A stretch of DNA of 64,000 nucleotides from Leptonema illini DSM 21528 (GTDB lineage: Bacteria; Spirochaetota; Leptospiria; Leptospirales; Leptonemataceae): assembly GCF_000243335.1 (NCBI RefSeq), contig NZ_JH597773.1, positions 562,489 through 626,488 on the forward strand. Reading direction: 5' to 3'. The notes under the pieces were generated by a model. The model searched no databases, was not told the DNA's origin, and was given only the letters and a program-made list of their open reading frames with translations. The translations under genes were made by a program, and so were the position numbers. Positions 27,853-36,275 of the stretch are shown here, in pieces (the first letter of the stretch is position 1; every line of letters begins with the position of its first letter).

Positions 27853-27899
27853 CAGAAGCTGTCTATTCTTTTTTCAGCCGAGAGTGGAGGATCTTACAA

Positions 27900-28725
27900 A
27901 GAATCCTTAAACGGGGGATTTTTTTTACCACAGAGGTCGCGGAGGGCACAGAGAAAACCAAGGCGATCTCCATTTCTCTCGCTTTATTCGCATATTTGGC
28001 GGATAGAAATCCATTTACCACGGAGACACGGAGAAAAGGCAGAAAGATAGGTATGAGATCCACTTCCCCTTTTTTCGCGCTTTTCGTGTATTTCGTGGAA
28101 AAAATCCATTCATCACTGAGGCACGGAGAAAAGGCACGATGGATGAGGCGATCAAGGGCTACAGATTTCTTGCGCGATTTTCGCGTATTTCGTGGTAAGA
28201 AAATCCTTTTGACCGCGAAAAGCGCGAAATACGCGAAAACAATCCGGATAAGAAAAGCGTTCGCGTTGCGGAAAGACCCCAACCCTCCTCTCCGCGTCCT
28301 CAGAGCCCTCCGAGGTTAACCTTCCTGATAGATAACACGAGAAAAAGCCAATCCACCGCAGAGGTCGCGAAGGACACAGAGAAGACCGGAGAGATCTCCT
28401 TCTCTCGCTTTATTCGCATATTTGGCGGACAGAAATCCATTCACCACGGAGACACGGAGAAAAGGCAGAAAGATAGGTACGAGATCCACTTCCCCTTTTT
28501 CGCGCTTTTCGTGTATTTCGTGGAAAAAATCCATTCATCACTGAGGCACGGAGAAAAGGCACGATGGATGAGGCGATCAAGGGCTACAGATTTCTTGCGC
28601 GATTTTCGCGTATTTCGTGGTAAGAAAATCCTTTTGACCGCGAGAAGCGCGAAATACGCGAAAACGATCCGGATAAGAAAAGCTTTCGCGTTGCGGAAAG
28701 ACCCCAACCCTCCTCTCCGCGCCCT
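27900..28725. repeat. Dispersed palindromic repeats with a tandem duplication of about 325 bases
   Basis: No gene here. About 27975-28300 and 28400-28725 are nearly identical copies at an offset of about 425 bases, differing at a handful of positions. Each copy holds three modules: TTTACCACGGAGACACGGAG, TTTCGTGTATTTCGTGG and the self-complementary GCGTATTTCGTGGT / ACCGCGAAAAGCGCGAAATACGCG pair. The second copy stops at CTCCGCGCCCT, exactly where intron 2 begins; the first copy continues through CAGAGCCCTCCGAGG. Open frames in this stretch are repeat by-products. Confidence 0.85.
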
Positions 28726-30639
28726 GTAGAGTAGAGAGGGTGCCGGAAATCCGGCAGCCCTCCCCCTCGTCAAACCGGACGTGCAGATTTCCCGCATCCG
28801 GCTTTCACGAATACCTGTTTCACTGCGTTAAGCATAGGATAGGAATTGCAGCCCCTGTTTCCTCAAATAGGAATTCCAGGTGTCACCCTCCGGGAGCTTC
28901 GTCTTACGCTGGCTTTTCCTCGTGAGGAATTTCCAGAATTTCAGATGGAGATAGTAGTTTACTTCGCTGTAGGCTCTCTTGCGGTATCCCACTGCGAAGT
29001 AGTTATCCCATCCTCTGAGCGTGCGATTCAGCTCTGCGATGGCCTGATCCACCGGTTTATAGGAGTTCCTGTAGGAGAGGAATTCGTGTATTTTCCCTTT
29101 TAGATTCTTGACGGATTTCTTTGACGGATAAACATTCAGGCATAGATAGTTCCTGTGATGGATTCCTTTTTCGTACCGGAAGGAGAAGCCGAGGAAATCA
29201 AGAATCGGGCCTGTCGTTCGCAGATCGACCCACCTTGTTTTCTCTCTGTTTATCGTCAGACGGAATCGTGTTTCAAGTAGATCCTCAAGATGATGGATCA
29301 TCTCTTTCATCGGTTCCTTCATCAAGATCACGAAGTCATCCGCATAGCGTACAATGGATGCCTGAATCTTCCTGCTCGTAGTCATGGCATGGAAGTATTT
29401 CTCGAAGTGATGGAGGTAGATGTTGGCGAGAAGCGGCGAGATGACGCCTCCCTGAGGCGTGCCTATCGTGCTTTTGTGCCATTTCTTCTTTCCATTCTCA
29501 TCGACATCCACTATCGTCGCTTTCAACCACATACGAAGCAGCTTCAAAACGGATCGATCAACGATTCTTCTCTCGACTGCCTTCATGAGATTGTCATGCG
29601 GGATGGTATCGAAATAACCCTTCAGATCCGCGTCATAGACAACACGCTTGCCTCCTTTCAGTTCAGACCGTATCGCTTCAACGGCATCATGTGCCGAACG
29701 ACCCGGTCGGAAACCGTAAGAGGTGTCCAGAAAATCCGCCTCGAAGATCGGTTCGATGATCAGGAGGACGGCCATCTGGATAACGCGGTCTTTGATGGTG
29801 GGGATTCCAAGGGGTCTTTTCCGACCATCCTTCTTCGGAATGTACACGCGTTTAACAGGGTCCGGACGATACGTTGATTCTTTCAGGCTGATTAACAGTC
29901 CCTCAAGAAATCCATCCACACCGTCTTTTCTCTTTTCAATGTCCTCAAAGCTGATTCCGTCGATGCCCGGCGCACCCTTATTGGCCCTTACTCGTTTCCA
30001 CGCAGATTCAAGGGTGTCCTTCCTGAGCACATGGCCGTACAGCGAGTAGAATCGAAACTTTGCTTCCGCTTTTGCTTTGTGAAAGAGCTTCGTTCTCAAA
30101 AGAGAGAGGTCCGCAGAGAGTCCCCACTGGTTTAGCGGGCAGTAGTCTGCATTTTCCGTAGTAGTTTCCAATCGGTCTTTCTCCTCATCTGAATCAGCTT
30201 GTATTCGTCAAGCCTCCTTCGCTCCATCGGAGTTACCCGACTTCGACGCTACTATGAAGCTCTCCGACTTCCCTTCCTGACCGCCCGACGGTTATTCATT
30301 CCCGCCGGACGTTTGCTGGCGCATCAGGAGGGATCTCCCAGGTTCCTCGCGTTCGCCTTACATGCGCGCTGTCCTCCAAGACCCCGGATAGCTCCGTGGC
30401 GGTGAGCGATTGTTGACCGCTCACGGATGGCAGGCTTCACCATCACGGACAGGTTGGCCGCTATCAGTTGAGTAACGAGGCTGAATAGGTTCGCTTTCGC
30501 TACGGCTCGCATGTTCATTTCCCGTGGCTTCGGCCTTTCGGTTGCCCTATGACCGCACGGTTCCTTAACCGCCGAACAATCAATTAGCGGTCCAGGGACG
30601 TTTCACCCTGGTGGCTCACACAGGCTTATCCTGGCGCAC
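28726..30639 (-). mobile_element. Group II intron 2 (1914 bases), class C-like
   Basis: The 5' end GTGCGCCAGGATAAGC is at 30639 and the 3' end CACCCTCTCTACTCTAC at 28726. Domains V and VI (about 28740-28805) match intron 1 except for two bases in the domain VI loop. The flanks join as CTCCGCGCCCT plus CCGAGCCCTCAGTGG on the plus strand, which rebuilds the dispersed repeat module CTCCGCGCCCTCTGAGCCCTCCGCGG in slightly decayed form. So this intron also sits inside a repeat copy, but in a different module from intron 1. The 460 bases between 30172 and 30639 are domain I-III RNA. Confidence 0.85.
28828..30171 (-). CDS. ltrA: Group II intron reverse transcriptase/maturase
   Basis: 447 residues inside intron 2. 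Blocks match the protein of intron 1 in order: GIPTIKDRVIQMAVLLIIEP, YDADLKGYFDTIP, IGTPQGGVISPLLANIYLHHFE, catalytic SIVRYADDFVILMK and ILDFLGFSFRYEKG, then a maturase thumb ending RGWDNYFAVGYRKRAY. There is no endonuclease domain. Conservation with the first copy is strong in the catalytic blocks and weak elsewhere, so these are sister lineages and not a recent duplication. The reading frame is intact. Confidence 0.93.
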   Translation of the reverse strand: METTTENADYCPLNQWGLSADLSLLRTKLFHKAKAEAKFRFYSLYGHVLRKDTLESAWKRVRANKGAPGIDGISFEDIEKRKDGVDGFLEGLLISLKESTYRPDPVKRVYIPKKDGRKRPLGIPTIKDRVIQMAVLLIIEPIFEADFLDTSYGFRPGRSAHDAVEAIRSELKGGKRVVYDADLKGYFDTIPHDNLMKAVERRIVDRSVLKLLRMWLKATIVDVDENGKKKWHKSTIGTPQGGVISPLLANIYLHHFEKYFHAMTTSRKIQASIVRYADDFVILMKEPMKEMIHHLEDLLETRFRLTINREKTRWVDLRTTGPILDFLGFSFRYEKGIHHRNYLCLNVYPSKKSVKNLKGKIHEFLSYRNSYKPVDQAIAELNRTLRGWDNYFAVGYRKRAYSEVNYYLHLKFWKFLTRKSQRKTKLPEGDTWNSYLRKQGLQFLSYA

Positions 30640-32368: not shown

Positions 32369-32399
32369 TTGGACATATACCCCATAGGGGTATATGTCC
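32369..32399 (+). promoter_or_regulatory. 13-bp perfect inverted repeat over a promoter, CsoR/CstR-like operator
   Basis: GGACATATACCCC (32371-32383) and GGGGTATATGTCC (32387-32399) are exact reverse complements around ATA. Short C and G runs flanked by an AT-rich dyad are a hallmark of operators of the CsoR/RcnR/CstR repressor family, which sense copper, nickel/cobalt, formaldehyde or persulfide. A possible -35 TTGGAC (32369-32374) and -10 TATATG (32391-32396) with a 16-base spacer lie within the dyad, so a bound repressor would block transcription of the Trx-TrxR fusion gene 19 bases downstream. No CsoR-type gene is in the window. Confidence 0.75.
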
Positions 32400-32417
32400 C
32401 GGATTCAGGAGGATCAC

Positions 32418-33758
32418 ATGGCAGAGCATCGTTTTATTCAAGAGATTCAGGCGTCGCAGTATGAGGCCCTTGTGGTCGGCGCAAAAGGGCCGGTCATCCT
32501 TGACTTCTATTCAGAGGATTGTGTTCCCTGCGAAGCGCTCGCTTCGAAGTTTGAGAGCCTCGCCGATCTTTTCGGTGAAGAGATCCGCTTTTATAAAATC
32601 TTTCGTCAACAGAACCGGGAGCTGGCCACAGAGCTCGGTGTGCGTTCCTCGCCGACCCTGATCTTCTATCGCGACGGTCAGGAGGTCGGACGTCGACTTA
32701 CGGGCGCCATCCGCAAAAAGGACATCGTTGAACAGATTGGCCAGCTGATTCCGGCCGACGCCTTTAATCGCCTCTACGCAAAGCGTTCGTCGTCTACGCG
32801 GGAGGTCGACGTGGCCATTCTTGGCGGCGGCCCTGCCGGGCTGACGGCAGCGCTTTATGCGGCGCAGGCCCGGCTTAACGTGCTTGTAATCGATCAGGAT
32901 CTGACCGGCGGACAGGTGAAGACGACGCATATGATCTCGAACTATCCGGGAACGGGCGGACCTGTATCGGGATGGGAGCTTTCAGAAAAGATGCTGCGTC
33001 AGGTGCAGGAAGCGGGCGCCGACGTTATCGCCGCCGTCGACGTTACGATGGCGAAGCTGAAATCGGGCGAGAGCGTTATCCGAATTGACGATGAGATCGA
33101 AGTGCATGCCCGATCCGTCATCCTCGCTACGGGCGCCGAGCCGCGAAGCCTGGGCGTGCCGGGCGAAAAAGAGTTCCGGGGACGCGGCATCTCGTATTGC
33201 GCCACCTGCGACGGTAAATACTACGACGGCAAAGAGGTCATCGTCATCGGCGGCGGCAATTCAGCCGTCGAAGAATCGATCTTTCTCACGAAGTTCGCTA
33301 CCAGGGTAACGATCGTGCATCAGTTCGATCATCTGCAGGCGAACAAACAGGCGCAGGAAGAGGCCTTCGCAAACGATCGCATCCGCTTTGTGTGGAACAG
33401 CGAGCCGCGCCGATTCGAGCAACTCGCGGACGGACGTATGAAGCTCAGCGTCGAAAACGTCAAGACGGGAGAGACGGATGAGATGATCACCGACGGCGTC
33501 TTCGTCTTTGTCGGCATGGTTCCGAATCTGACGGGCATCGAATCCGACGTGCCGATTGAGAAGAATCAATGGGGCTATGTTATCACCGACGAAGATATGG
33601 AGACGAACGTTCCGGGTATCTTTGCGATCGGTGACGTGCGGGCGAAAAAATATCGCCAGGCCGCCATTGCCGTCGGCGAAGGATGTATCGCCGCCATTGC
33701 CTGTGAAAAACGTCTTGAGGCGATGAAGCATAGCGAAAAAGAGCTTGCGAGCGTTTGA
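32418..33758 (+). CDS. Thioredoxin-thioredoxin reductase fusion
   Basis: 446 residues from MAEHRFIQEI, with AGGAGG six bases before the ATG. Residues 1-110 are a thioredoxin domain whose active site reads DCVPC (Cys35, Cys38) in place of WCGPC. Residues about 128-440 are a low-Mr thioredoxin reductase: FAD motif ILGGGPAGLTAALYA, redox pair CATC in ISYCATCDG, NADPH motif IVIGGGNSAVEES and C-terminal GIFAIGDVR. Known natural fusions mostly carry thioredoxin at the C-terminus; here the order is reversed. It sits under a CsoR/CstR-like operator and precedes the ArsM-like gene by 31 bases; thioredoxin/reductase is the known reductant of ArsM enzymes. Confidence 0.92.
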   Translation: MAEHRFIQEIQASQYEALVVGAKGPVILDFYSEDCVPCEALASKFESLADLFGEEIRFYKIFRQQNRELATELGVRSSPTLIFYRDGQEVGRRLTGAIRKKDIVEQIGQLIPADAFNRLYAKRSSSTREVDVAILGGGPAGLTAALYAAQARLNVLVIDQDLTGGQVKTTHMISNYPGTGGPVSGWELSEKMLRQVQEAGADVIAAVDVTMAKLKSGESVIRIDDEIEVHARSVILATGAEPRSLGVPGEKEFRGRGISYCATCDGKYYDGKEVIVIGGGNSAVEESIFLTKFATRVTIVHQFDHLQANKQAQEEAFANDRIRFVWNSEPRRFEQLADGRMKLSVENVKTGETDEMITDGVFVFVGMVPNLTGIESDVPIEKNQWGYVITDEDMETNVPGIFAIGDVRAKKYRQAAIAVGEGCIAAIACEKRLEAMKHSEKELASV

Positions 33759-33789
33759 TCGGCGCAAAGAGTCAGAGCAGGAATCACAG

Positions 33790-34431
33790 ATGTCGACACA
33801 AACGAACGAAGCCATTCAGGTACGATACGCCGCCGAAGCTACGACAGCGTGCTGTCTTTCTTGCGGCGGAGCGCTCGATCATGCAAAGCCGCAGCCCGGC
33901 GAGACGCTTGTCGATCTGGGCAGTGGCCGCGGCCTTGATGTTCTGAAGTCCGCTCGTATGGTCGGTGCAACGGGCCGTGCCATCGGCGTCGATATGACGT
34001 CGGCCATGCTTGAGGTGGCCCGCTCCAACGCGGCGAAGCTGAAGCTCGACAACGCTGAGTTTATTCAGGCTGAAATCGAATCCCTGCCGCTTCCCGACGC
34101 CTCCGTCGACGTCGTCATCTCGAACTGCACGATCAATCATGCTCCCGATAAGGCGAAGGTGTACGCCGAGATCCACCGTGTTCTCAAACCGGGTGGACGC
34201 TTCGTCGTATCGGACGTTCTGGCCGATAACGAGCTGCCCGAGCATATCAAGAACGATCCCGAGGCCATCGCCGCCTGTTACGGAGGCGCGATCACTGAAC
34301 AGCAGTATATCGACGCCATCGCCGCCGGCGGTTTTCGTGATCTCGAAATCCTCGAGAAAAGCGAGCCTTATGCGAAAGGCAAGGATCAGGTAATGGTGCG
34401 TTCGCTGACGCTGCGAGGCATTCGCCGTTGA
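33790..34431 (+). CDS. ArsM-like SAM methyltransferase
   Basis: 213 residues from MSTQTNEAIQ after an AGGA. The SAM-binding motif is LVDLGSGRGLDVLKSARMVG, followed by GVDMTSAMLEVAR, as in arsenite methyltransferases. Three cysteine positions match ArsM: an N-terminal CCLSCGGAL block just before the SAM motif, Cys in VVISNCTINHAPDKAKVY, and Cys in AACYGGAITEQQYI. So binding of trivalent arsenic or another thiophilic element is plausible. The protein is shorter than most ArsM, lacking the C-terminal domain. It lies between the Trx-TrxR gene and the peptide gene, and methylation of a peptide or metal(loid) ligand are the two candidate roles; neither is proved. Confidence 0.8.
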   Translation: MSTQTNEAIQVRYAAEATTACCLSCGGALDHAKPQPGETLVDLGSGRGLDVLKSARMVGATGRAIGVDMTSAMLEVARSNAAKLKLDNAEFIQAEIESLPLPDASVDVVISNCTINHAPDKAKVYAEIHRVLKPGGRFVVSDVLADNELPEHIKNDPEAIAACYGGAITEQQYIDAIAAGGFRDLEILEKSEPYAKGKDQVMVRSLTLRGIRR

Positions 34432-34436
34432 TCGAT

Positions 34437-34597
34437 CTTTTACAGCGTAAAAGAGAGACCAGAAGAATAAACAACTCTCAAGAACCGCCACGTATGGCGT
34501 TTTTGAGGAAATGCAAACGGGCATTATTTCGCCAGTCGGCGAGTATGCAACCGCTCGAAACAGAGCGGGGCTTGAAACAAAATAGAAGGAGGCTGAC
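34437..34597 (+). other. Hairpin-rich leader of the peptide gene
   Basis: Four hairpins follow in 130 bases: CTTTTAC/GTAAAAG (34437-34453), CTCAA-CGCCA/TGGCG-TTGAG (34477-34507), CGCC/GGCG near 34540, and CCGCTC/GAGCGG just before the Shine-Dalgarno AAGGAGG. The second is followed by a short pause before the coding region, not by a long T-run. I cannot match it to a known riboswitch. It could process or stabilise the peptide mRNA or act as attenuator. Confidence 0.45.
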
Positions 34598-34696
34598 ATG
34601 AAAGCCGTCACCACCATCAAACCGGTTGCCGCTCAAAAAACGGTAGCTCAGTGCTGTGCAAAAAACAGCAAGATTATCTCAGGCTGTCACGATTGA
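34598..34696 (+). CDS. 32-residue Cys-containing peptide, candidate RiPP precursor
   Basis: An ideal AGAAGGAGG Shine-Dalgarno lies seven bases before the ATG. The product has a lysine- and valine-rich first half and the C-terminal part AQCCAKNSKIISGCHD with three cysteines, a serine and a terminal His-Asp. A rho-independent terminator starts six bases after the stop, then the radical SAM/SPASM gene follows at 34818. Short peptide genes directly before a SPASM radical SAM protein are the standard layout of sactipeptide and related RiPP loci. I infer that the first half is leader and the Cys region core. It is too short for automatic gene finders and easily missed. Confidence 0.75.
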   Translation: MKAVTTIKPVAAQKTVAQCCAKNSKIISGCHD

Positions 34697-34701
34697 TTGC
34701 C

Positions 34702-34724
34702 GGCCCGGTTTTCCGGGCCTTTTT
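34702..34724 (+). terminator. Rho-independent terminator after the peptide gene
   Basis: GGCCCGG (34702-34708), TTTT loop, CCGGGCC (34713-34719), then five T. It would make most transcripts end after the peptide and let a minority read through into the maturase, the usual way to make much substrate and little enzyme. Confidence 0.9.
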
Positions 34725-34817
34725 CATCTTTCTATACGGCGATATTCACAGGAACGTCGTGCGGCTTAAAGCGATCGCTTCGCCACGACAGCGAGCAAAT
34801 TCCAGGACAGAAACACC

Positions 34818-36275
34818 ATGATACAATCACGTTATACATTCACCTTTGAAACGGAATCCGGCCGCTCGTTCATCATGAACTACCTGACCGGAGCGCTCGA
34901 CGAGCTCGAACCGCTCGAAAGACCCGAGCTCGAATCTCGTATGAAAGAAGGGAACTGGAACGACTACCATCTGACGCCGTATATGCTTGAGCGCGGGTAT
35001 CTCTTTGCCTCAGCCGGCGACGAAGAGTCGATGATCCAGGAGAAGTTCCTCGAGTTTCAGGATGAATACGACAGGACGGCCGTTCAGCTGATCTTCTCGA
35101 CGACCTATGTCTGTAACTTCTCGTGTGTGTACTGTTTTCAGGAAAGCTATAAAGAAGAATCGAAGATCCTGACCCCTGAAATCGTCGACGCCTTTTTCAG
35201 CTATGTGGAGCGCCGCTTCGGGAACGAGCCGGTGCGTCCGTATATTACGCTTTTCGGCGGCGAACCGCTTCTTGGCGCCGAGCGCTACAAGAAGAATCTG
35301 ATCTACATGCTTGAGAAGGCAAAAGAGCATGATATCGCCATCTGCATCGTGACCAACGGATACGAGTTGAGTAACTACGTGCCCGAGTTCCAGCGCATCG
35401 GCGTGAAGATTCGCGAGATTCAGGTTTCGATGGACGGCAGCCCTGAGATGCAGAACCACAGGCGTCCGACGGCGGGCGGCAAACCCACTTTTGATAGGGT
35501 CAGCGACGGCATCGATACGGCCCTTCGCGCCGGCTACCGCATCAATCTGCGTATGATCGTCGACCGCGATAACCTCGAATCGCTTGTGGAGCTCGCGAAC
35601 CACGCGCAGCAGTCCGGATGGATGGATTATCCGCAATCGCTCTTTGAAACGACGATCGGTCGCAACTACGAGTTGCATACCTGTCAGCCAAAGGCCAATC
35701 TCTATGATCGTACGACTCTCTGGCAGGACTTTGTCAGAGTGGCGAAGAAACATCCCATTCTCGCGAAGTTTCACCGACCGCAATTCCACGGCATGCGTTA
35801 CCTGAAAGAAAACGGATCGTTACCCATGCCGATCTTTGACGGATGCCCGGCCGGTAAAAAGGAATGGGCCTTCGACCTGAACGGCGACATCTTCGGCTGC
35901 ACGGCCTCTGTCGGTGTTGAGAAGTATCGCCTGGGCAACATCTTCGACGAAGATGCCGTGGCACAGCCCGTTGCCGCCGCACAGTTTGCCTGCACCGATA
36001 CGCTTGAGACGCCGTACAGCTCGCATTTCAGAGACGATCTGATGCAGCCCATCGCCAATCCCGACTCTCTGCCCGGTCCGGCCGAACAGGCCATACAGTG
36101 GGCCCGTCGCGACGTTCTCGCCATAGATCAATGCCGGCAGTGTCCGGTCAGCCTCAGCTGCGGCGGCGGATGCGGCGTACTGGCGGCAAACCGCACCGGC
36201 AAGATCCTCTCGACGGATTGCCGGCCGGTCAAAGACCTGGTCGCTCTCGGCGCCGACTTCTACGGAATCGGTTAA
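34818..36275 (+). CDS. Radical SAM/SPASM peptide maturase
   Basis: 485 residues. Residues 1-85 look like the small RRE-like or leader-contact domain common in these maturases (FIMNYLTGALDELEP, then LTPYMLERGYLF). The radical SAM cluster is CNFSCVYC (Cys99, Cys103, Cys106), followed by LFGGEPLL and the VSMDGSPEMQNHRRP strand. The SPASM domain has FDGCPAGKKEWAFDLNGDIFGC and CRQCPVSLSCGGGC, enough cysteines for two auxiliary clusters. Such enzymes make thioether or carbon-carbon crosslinks in ribosomal peptides. The peptide gene lies 121 bases upstream. The chemistry on this peptide cannot be predicted from sequence. Confidence 0.92.
   Translation: MIQSRYTFTFETESGRSFIMNYLTGALDELEPLERPELESRMKEGNWNDYHLTPYMLERGYLFASAGDEESMIQEKFLEFQDEYDRTAVQLIFSTTYVCNFSCVYCFQESYKEESKILTPEIVDAFFSYVERRFGNEPVRPYITLFGGEPLLGAERYKKNLIYMLEKAKEHDIAICIVTNGYELSNYVPEFQRIGVKIREIQVSMDGSPEMQNHRRPTAGGKPTFDRVSDGIDTALRAGYRINLRMIVDRDNLESLVELANHAQQSGWMDYPQSLFETTIGRNYELHTCQPKANLYDRTTLWQDFVRVAKKHPILAKFHRPQFHGMRYLKENGSLPMPIFDGCPAGKKEWAFDLNGDIFGCTASVGVEKYRLGNIFDEDAVAQPVAAAQFACTDTLETPYSSHFRDDLMQPIANPDSLPGPAEQAIQWARRDVLAIDQCRQCPVSLSCGGGCGVLAANRTGKILSTDCRPVKDLVALGADFYGIG

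Follow-up and report, generated by a model that had tools for sequence, protein, structure and literature searches.

A cassette of four genes, preceded by a dyad and lying wholly on the plus strand, occupies positions 32371-36275 of the window (the 64,000-nucleotide stretch of Leptonema illini DSM 21528 DNA that was analysed) and very probably encodes a system for the maturation of a ribosomal peptide (RiPP type). It would apparently be an undescribed class among the radical SAM peptides, in which an ArsM-like methyltransferase and thioredoxin partners are constant. All five elements proposed by the first-pass annotation, a dyad with perfect 13-bp arms, a thioredoxin-thioredoxin reductase (Trx-TrxR) fusion, an ArsM-like methyltransferase, a Cys peptide and a SPASM protein, are present where it had placed them. 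The genes run in a single direction with the short gaps that it described, except around the peptide, where 166 nt precede and 121 nt follow the gene. An Rfam scan across the region gave no match. The same annotation knew of no RiPP class with these genes, and this still stands: no described family matched, and a search of open-access papers for an arsenic RiPP or for the gene set of the cassette found no description.

The precursor-type peptide is 32 amino acids long (MKAVTTIKPVAAQKTVAQCCAKNSKIISGCHD, followed by a stop codon; 34598-34696, plus strand) and is the same gene at every cassette for which there is enough sequence. A variable, basic leader precedes a near-invariant core made of the C-terminal 16 residues (AQCCAKNSKIISGCHD; 34646-34693, plus strand). 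The C-terminus AQCC[AST]Kx[ST]xxxxGCHD-COOH is found in 29 of 29 distinct cores from about 20 families; A, Q, C, C, K, G, C, H and D are invariant and position 8 is either Ser or Thr, ten core positions being essentially fixed. Distant families encode the same peptide at the same position by synonymous codons, and the Pfam and NCBIfam HMM libraries hold no family that the peptide matches. No selenocysteine was seen in the peptide: the TGA following GCHD is a stop codon, because relatives have TAA or TAG there. Directly 3' of the peptide gene lies a strong RNA hairpin with a T run (34702-34724, plus strand), a candidate attenuator or terminator. The hairpin after the peptide stop is locus-specific; a fold z ≤ -2 occurs within 60 nt past the stop at 25 of 37 loci. 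It fits an arrangement in which a precursor expressed at a high level is followed by an enzyme expressed at a lower one.

The last gene of the cassette (34818-36275, plus strand) encodes a radical SAM/SPASM protein of 485 amino acids, with a CX3CX2C motif at 35112-35135 and seven SPASM cysteines within 35844-36227. Cys99, Cys103 and Cys106 of the former and Cys343, 361, 439, 442, 448, 452 and 468 of the latter are invariant in 15 homologues. The N-terminal domain of this maturase (34818-35081, plus strand) is built of three strands and helices in the AlphaFold model m6dc8aca38035 (E7-11, E17-21, E26-30, H35-44, H53-59, H66-85; pLDDT about 77-93), from which we infer a domain resembling a RiPP recognition element (RRE). 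The closest fold to the maturase model is CteB (PDB codes 5wgg and 5why; E 2.4e-12 for 5wgg), an enzyme known to carry an RRE and also the best PDB sequence match. The cassette has in common with the CteB/SCIFF maturases (TIGR03974) and the ranthipeptides the radical SAM and SPASM domains and the adjoining Cys precursor, and its predicted N-terminal domain would resemble theirs. However, identity to CteB in the fold alignment is 17%, the precursor is unlike SCIFF, the TIGR03974 score of 84 bits is below the cut-off of 425, and the methyltransferase and Trx-TrxR are constant partners here. The top NCBIfam scores, 105-107 bits, are likewise far below their cut-offs (CefB, 107 against 600; TIGR04463, 105 against 525; PapB NF047865, 106 against 340), as is the score with the mycofactocin maturase model (57 against 265); other maturase homologues likewise stay below the CefB and TIGR04463 cut-offs.

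Among 393 Spirochaetota genomes the maturase occurs in 36, the peptide pattern in 37 (once per genome) and the fusion profile in 37, nearly all of these being cassette genomes, while the short methyltransferase is found in the same set. With the peptide pattern in 37 of 393 genomes and its reversed form in 0, a chance reading frame is ruled out. Mismatches in gene set between genomes fall mostly at contig ends, three being real exceptions, and wherever the contig extends far enough, the peptide adjoins the maturase. The pairwise identities of the three enzymes correlate (r = 0.73-0.87 over 28 loci), to which shared ancestry contributes. Scanning genome contigs with a single sequence gave seven loci, which correspond to Spirochaetota genomes. 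The first-pass annotation had reasoned that the cluster would be accidental if close maturase homologues lacked a short peptide nearby or if methyltransferase and maturase never co-occurred; neither situation arose, since close and distant homologues of the maturase alike have the Cys peptide, and the methyltransferase and the maturase do occur together.

The second gene (33790-34431, plus strand) encodes a short ArsM-like methyltransferase of 213 amino acids that keeps the As(III)-binding cysteines of ArsM, Cys25, Cys113 and Cys163; these are present in 33, 34 and 34, respectively, of 34 cassette methyltransferases. ArsM works through the three cysteines kept here (PMC12608789). The protein scores 231 bits with the ArsM model NF008823 (cut-off 263) over profile positions 56-239 of 272, and is not full length. 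Identity to plasmid ArsMs (NF008823/PRK11873) is about 47% across the common part, but the cassette enzyme is without some 45 N-terminal residues, including the CC pairs, and without part of the C-terminus; the Cys pairs that 10 full ArsMs carry near the N-terminus are missing from the cassette methyltransferases. The active site is also altered, with NCxxNH in the cassette against NCVxNL in ArsM and C[YW][AG]G against C[VIL]SGA, changes that may reflect a different substrate. In the tree, the cassette methyltransferases form a monophyletic clade of their own, an offshoot of ArsM. The DVU_1556 family (NF045667) has an equally short methyltransferase (213 positions), with a distant similarity of 95 bits that falls below its cut-off of 155 and is much weaker than the ArsM match. 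Two full-length ArsMs are encoded elsewhere in the source genome, so the cassette is unnecessary for ordinary arsenic methylation.

The first gene (32418-33758, plus strand) encodes the Trx-TrxR fusion of 446 amino acids, which matches the Thioredoxin and TRX_reduct models and carries the active-site motifs CVPC (thioredoxin) and CATC (reductase). The activity of AS3MT, the ArsM orthologue, is strongly increased with Trx, TrxR and NADPH (PMC12608789), and arsT, a thioredoxin reductase gene, is a member of ars gene sets (PMC12108572). One cassette has an ArsP permease gene 263 bp upstream, and another lies inside a full ars island with ArsR, ACR3-like, ArsC-like, a second ArsM and ArsP. Together with the three ArsM cysteines, the ArsP or ars genes at these two cassettes suggest a role in arsenic handling.

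We judge that the system on balance handles a soft element, arsenic or sulfur; that the element is arsenic specifically is plausible, though somewhat short of even. The complete reading that we favour, a RiPP-type peptide with an ArsM-like enzyme acting on As(III) and recycling by Trx-TrxR, has about an even chance of being correct. Gene content, co-occurrence, conservation and domain assignment are read from the sequence, and we infer the modification of the peptide, the bond, the element, and the substrate or carrier role of the peptide for the methyltransferase. In the proposed mechanism, the precursor would consist of the variable basic leader and the fixed 16-residue C-terminus, and the maturase would use its RRE-like N-terminus to dock on the leader. 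A radical-made bond, by analogy with CteB a thioether, would most likely be put into the core, and the mature peptide, a small thiol ligand or cofactor, would not leave the cell. It would present arsenic(III), the favoured element, to be methylated by the truncated ArsM-like enzyme, while the Trx-TrxR fusion would recycle disulfides. More tentatively, and in our estimation rather doubtfully, the modified three-Cys peptide might bind As(III) and substitute in trans for the lost Cys-rich N-terminus of the ArsM-like enzyme, arsenic being methylated on the peptide itself. If arsenic is the element, the cassette would represent a new mode of metalloid detoxification via a made-to-measure peptide, and if the peptide is an arsenic cofactor or carrier, it would be the first known ribosomal peptide made for arsenic handling.

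Arsenic genes stand beside only 2 of about 38 cassettes. Cassette flanks contain no recurrent transporter or exporter, peptidase, immunity gene, client oxidoreductase or fifth constant gene; partly recurrent neighbours are MarR (6 loci), DUF5714 (4), DUF1847 (3) and DsbD/thioredoxin-like genes. Points that speak against the reading favoured here are the small number of ars-flanked cassettes, the two other ArsMs, the altered active site, the lack of a recurrent peptidase or exporter, and a cassette genome (G027) that is without the fusion.

Just 5' of the first gene lies the dyad (32371-32399), a 13-bp perfect inverted repeat with a 3-bp spacer (GGACATATACCCC-ATA-GGGGTATATGTCC; 0 mismatches). 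The window contains one copy of its core pattern, where 0.04 are expected, and its mismatch-free form has one copy genome-wide. The dyad had been described as covering a promoter; the repeat is indeed there, while a consensus scan gave no promoter match. We consider it a candidate operator of the CsoR/CstR type. Related dyads of the TATACC type stand 5' of the cassettes in relatives with a CsoR-family protein, and none was seen at the cassettes of relatives without one. The sole CsoR-family (PF02583) protein of the genome, encoded at a distance from the cassette, has two Cys residues and a Gln replacing the His ligand, as in the persulfide-sensing CstR. Its closest NCBIfam relations are distant matches to RicR and FrmR, and judging by these residues it leans towards CstR rather than towards a copper sensor. 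Near-perfect copies of the operator precede two lipoprotein genes, one for a rhodanese and one for a Tll0287-like protein; rhodaneses are repressed by known CstRs (PMC10318464). A TACC...GGTA-type operator, a two-Cys His-less regulator and a rhodanese gene with the same operator are common to CstR regulons and to this genome, whereas here the regulator gene is far from the cassette and the pairing of regulator with operator is a co-occurrence of sequences.

The regulator and operator evidence favours reactive sulfur at least as much as arsenic. The cassette might accordingly be seen as a RiPP-type system for reactive sulfur, whose peptide carries or senses persulfide, whose methyltransferase S-methylates sulfide or persulfide thiols and whose repressor is CstR-like, which would establish a new peptide link within persulfide biology. 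DsrE-type genes next to two cassettes agree with this. Nevertheless, we hold it to be rather unlikely: the methyltransferase is clearly an ArsM-family protein and retains the three cysteines, the dyad and the CsoR-family gene are both absent from many of the cassettes and genomes compared, and neither DsrE nor rhodanese is a constant partner.

Mycofactocin and PQQ derive from a short precursor with a nearly fixed C-terminal core, present once per genome, and involve a SPASM enzyme and a dedicated oxidoreductase. The cassette would, by analogy, resemble these in precursor form, single copy, SPASM enzyme and oxidoreductase partner. That the peptide barely varies suggests that it probably serves as a tool of the cell and not as a weapon, as do the few cofactors known to derive from peptides. 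Its near-invariant core, fixed C-terminus, single copy and dedicated reductase follow the pattern of a cofactor and not of an antibiotic, and the mature peptide could be a redox cofactor recycled by Trx-TrxR, with methylation structural and no metalloid involved. Such a role is unlikely, as it leaves unexplained the recruitment of a three-Cys metalloid methyltransferase and the ars neighbours; moreover, the precursor has no sequence in common with those of mycofactocin or PQQ, no dedicated peptidase or dehydrogenases were seen at the cassettes, and no client oxidoreductase recurs in the flanks.

The three cysteines of the peptide would suit trigonal coordination of As(III), and the methyltransferase has lost its N-terminal Cys pairs; an unmodified thiol chaperone that passes As(III) to the methyltransferase, the radical enzyme having another substrate, might be imagined on these grounds. 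This is improbable, for the maturase, with its SPASM domain and RRE-like N-terminus, is the most constant neighbour of the peptide and is related to enzymes that mature peptides. Among RiPPs of the SPASM type, many act as antibiotics or signals. A secreted product with an antimicrobial or signalling function is even less probable here, given a core that is near-constant over about 20 families and flanks that lack a recurrent gene for a transporter, a protease or immunity. Accidental neighbourhood, or a peptide frame that is not a gene, has practically no probability: the peptide is just 32 amino acids long and absent from both HMM libraries tried, but the co-occurrence counts, the synonymous codons, the distant families and the zero count of the reversed pattern exclude it.

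No copy of the peptide was found on plasmids or phages, and viral contigs gave neither the peptide pattern nor a maturase-profile match. The relatives carried by plasmids and phages are distant SPASM proteins, ordinary ArsM or Trx/TrxR only. A plasmid locus of the CefA/TIGR04463 type is another system, having a large precursor with Cys at every fifth position and a radical SAM C-methyltransferase.

Five elements lie on the plus strand between positions 32371 and 36275 of the window, a 64-kb part of a spirochaete genome of 4.5 Mb whose near relatives are labelled Leptospiraceae: a perfect 13-bp dyad, a thioredoxin–thioredoxin reductase (Trx-TrxR) fusion, an ArsM-like methyltransferase (213 AAs), a peptide of 32 AAs (MKAVTTIKPVAAQKTVAQCCAKNSKIISGCHD) and a radical SAM/SPASM protein (485 AAs). 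This matches the parts list and single direction of the first-pass annotation, which had also placed the dyad over a promoter; the dyad stands, while the promoter was not confirmed by a consensus scan.

The first relatives inspected carry an identical gene set, with a short gene of identical 16-residue ending between methyltransferase and maturase; L032 is the sole locus where the peptide gene lies elsewhere on the stretch. The in-depth search covered Spirochaetota, 393 genomes of which were surveyed by four separate queries (maturase, peptide DNA pattern, Trx-TrxR and short methyltransferase). The maturase profile identified 36 genomes from 28 genera and about 20 families (labels being database codes). 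The peptide pattern, which fixes most invariant core residues so that variants outside it would escape, matched exactly once in each of 37 genomes, and its reversed form in none of the 393. The Trx-TrxR profile was found in 37 genomes and the short methyltransferase profile in the same genome set, mostly scoring clearly above full-length ArsMs. SPASM homologues, an ArsM-like gene and a short Cys peptide, the recurrence of which had been proposed as a check, are found together in this survey. In cassettes found by the maturase, independently of the pattern, the peptide was present in all with enough sequence. Contig ends cut the cassette in G102, G028, G220, G007 and G095, and abut the cassette or the fusion in G036, G044, G113 and G087. 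The real exceptions among disagreeing genomes are G027, with complete methyltransferase, peptide and maturase genes without the fusion; G244, with the fusion only; and G077 (L178, G077:C37:5291-6213), where the methyltransferase is directly followed by the last 76 residues of TrxR, and the peptide, the maturase and most of the fusion are missing, apparently the remnant of a deleted cassette.

Among 29 distinct cores (the last 16 residues), A1, Q2, C3, C4, K6, G13, C14, H15 and D16 are invariant, position 8 is S or T, and the stop codon immediately follows D16 in every case. As codons vary freely between loci while these residues are fixed, selection acts on the protein. The leader is basic, variable in length and sequence, often starts with M[KR][ST][LVI], and in some cases bears an additional CC. 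A strong, locus-specific hairpin usually lies directly 3' of the peptide stop (GGCCCGG-TTTT-CCGGGCC-TTTTT in the window); its folding reaches z <= -2 at 25 of the 37 loci, and the median z is -3.2. Hairpins raising the precursor above the downstream enzyme are common in peptide operons, and we take this one as a putative attenuator or RNA-stabilising stem that would yield more precursor than maturase.

The CX3CX2C motif and seven C-terminal cysteines are invariant among the maturase homologues compared. In the AlphaFold model (pTM 0.76, cluster-binding loops weak) the N-terminus forms an RRE-like domain of three strands and helices, and the best solved-structure matches are CteB, TigE and SuiB. 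Since, in addition, no NCBIfam model came near its cut-off, it is a SPASM peptide maturase outside any named family. By analogy, the modification predicted for the core is most likely a thioether. RiPPs with SPASM enzymes are already known as a kind. The gene set, the peptide and the methyltransferase subfamily gave nothing at cut-off in Pfam or NCBIfam and no match in the open-access literature searched, in agreement with the first-pass statement that no described RiPP class has these genes. The modification, the element handled and the cassette function are predicted from sequence.

ArsM is the nearest family of the cassette methyltransferase (about 47% identical to plasmid ArsMs). Alignment of 34 cassette methyltransferases with ten full-length ArsMs confirmed that the three cysteines holding As(III) in ArsM (PMC12608789) are kept, as first noticed in the window. 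In contrast to ArsM, the cassette enzymes, which group in a single clade (support 0.755), lack the N-terminal stretch bearing CC pairs; N116 is followed by H, and the third Cys in most of them by Y or W. The window's genome encodes two full-length ArsMs in addition. The CC...C of the peptide might replace the Cys-rich N-terminus that the methyltransferase has lost, an idea we thought worth testing. The cassette Trx-TrxR, a dedicated fusion, carries CxPC and CATC motifs. Arsenic methylation by AS3MT draws its reducing power from thioredoxin/thioredoxin reductase (PMC12608789), and ars genes include a thioredoxin reductase, arsT (PMC12108572); the fusion could equally hold peptide thiols reduced. 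At L182 (G064:C1:571500-574500) and L183 (G287:C1:181500-183500), each a full-length ArsM gene, an in-frame TGA takes the very position of the third catalytic cysteine (UVGGA); these genes probably encode the selenoprotein ArsM (UxxG) that PMC13188914 lists.

The element handled may, tentatively, be arsenic: besides the three ArsM cysteines, an ArsP permease fragment lies 263 bp upstream of one cassette (L035), and another (L032) lies inside an ars island. Reactive sulfur, a less likely alternative, is suggested by the dyad before the cassette and its candidate regulator. CstR has two cysteines and lacks the His of copper sensors; the genome's sole CsoR-family protein likewise has two cysteines, with Q at that His position. 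Dyad copies with 1 mismatch (G000:C1:361352 and G000:C1:737606; L044, L045) stand ahead of two lipoprotein genes, one encoding a rhodanese and the other Tll0287-like, and rhodaneses belong to CstR regulons (PMC10318464). Two cassettes also adjoin DsrE genes.

The dyad-bearing genes are a candidate small regulon of this CsoR-family protein. Six relatives encoding a CsoR-family protein (G002, G014, G017, G020, G027, G028) have a related TATACC-type dyad ahead of the cassette; none was seen in five relatives without one (G005, G034, G036, G038, G040; upstream DNA partial in G036 and G038). Since the His is retained in the regulators of G027 and G028, lineages may respond to different signals. Cassettes of other families have a MarR gene instead of the CsoR-type dyad, probably as local regulator; in six cassettes (L082, L083, L085, L086, L088, L092) this small gene immediately precedes the methyltransferase. 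The Cys-containing DUF5714 (L033, L075, L076, L077) and DUF1847 (L085, L090, L093) proteins are encoded next to the cassette in some lineages and may be accessory parts. In the window, a group II intron-type reverse transcriptase reading frame (28828-30171, minus strand) adjoins repeats at 27863-28800 that encode one phrase (FLPRNTRKSRKKSVALDRLIHRAFSPCLSDEWIFSTKYTKSAKK) in two ORFs and look like repeated non-coding DNA.
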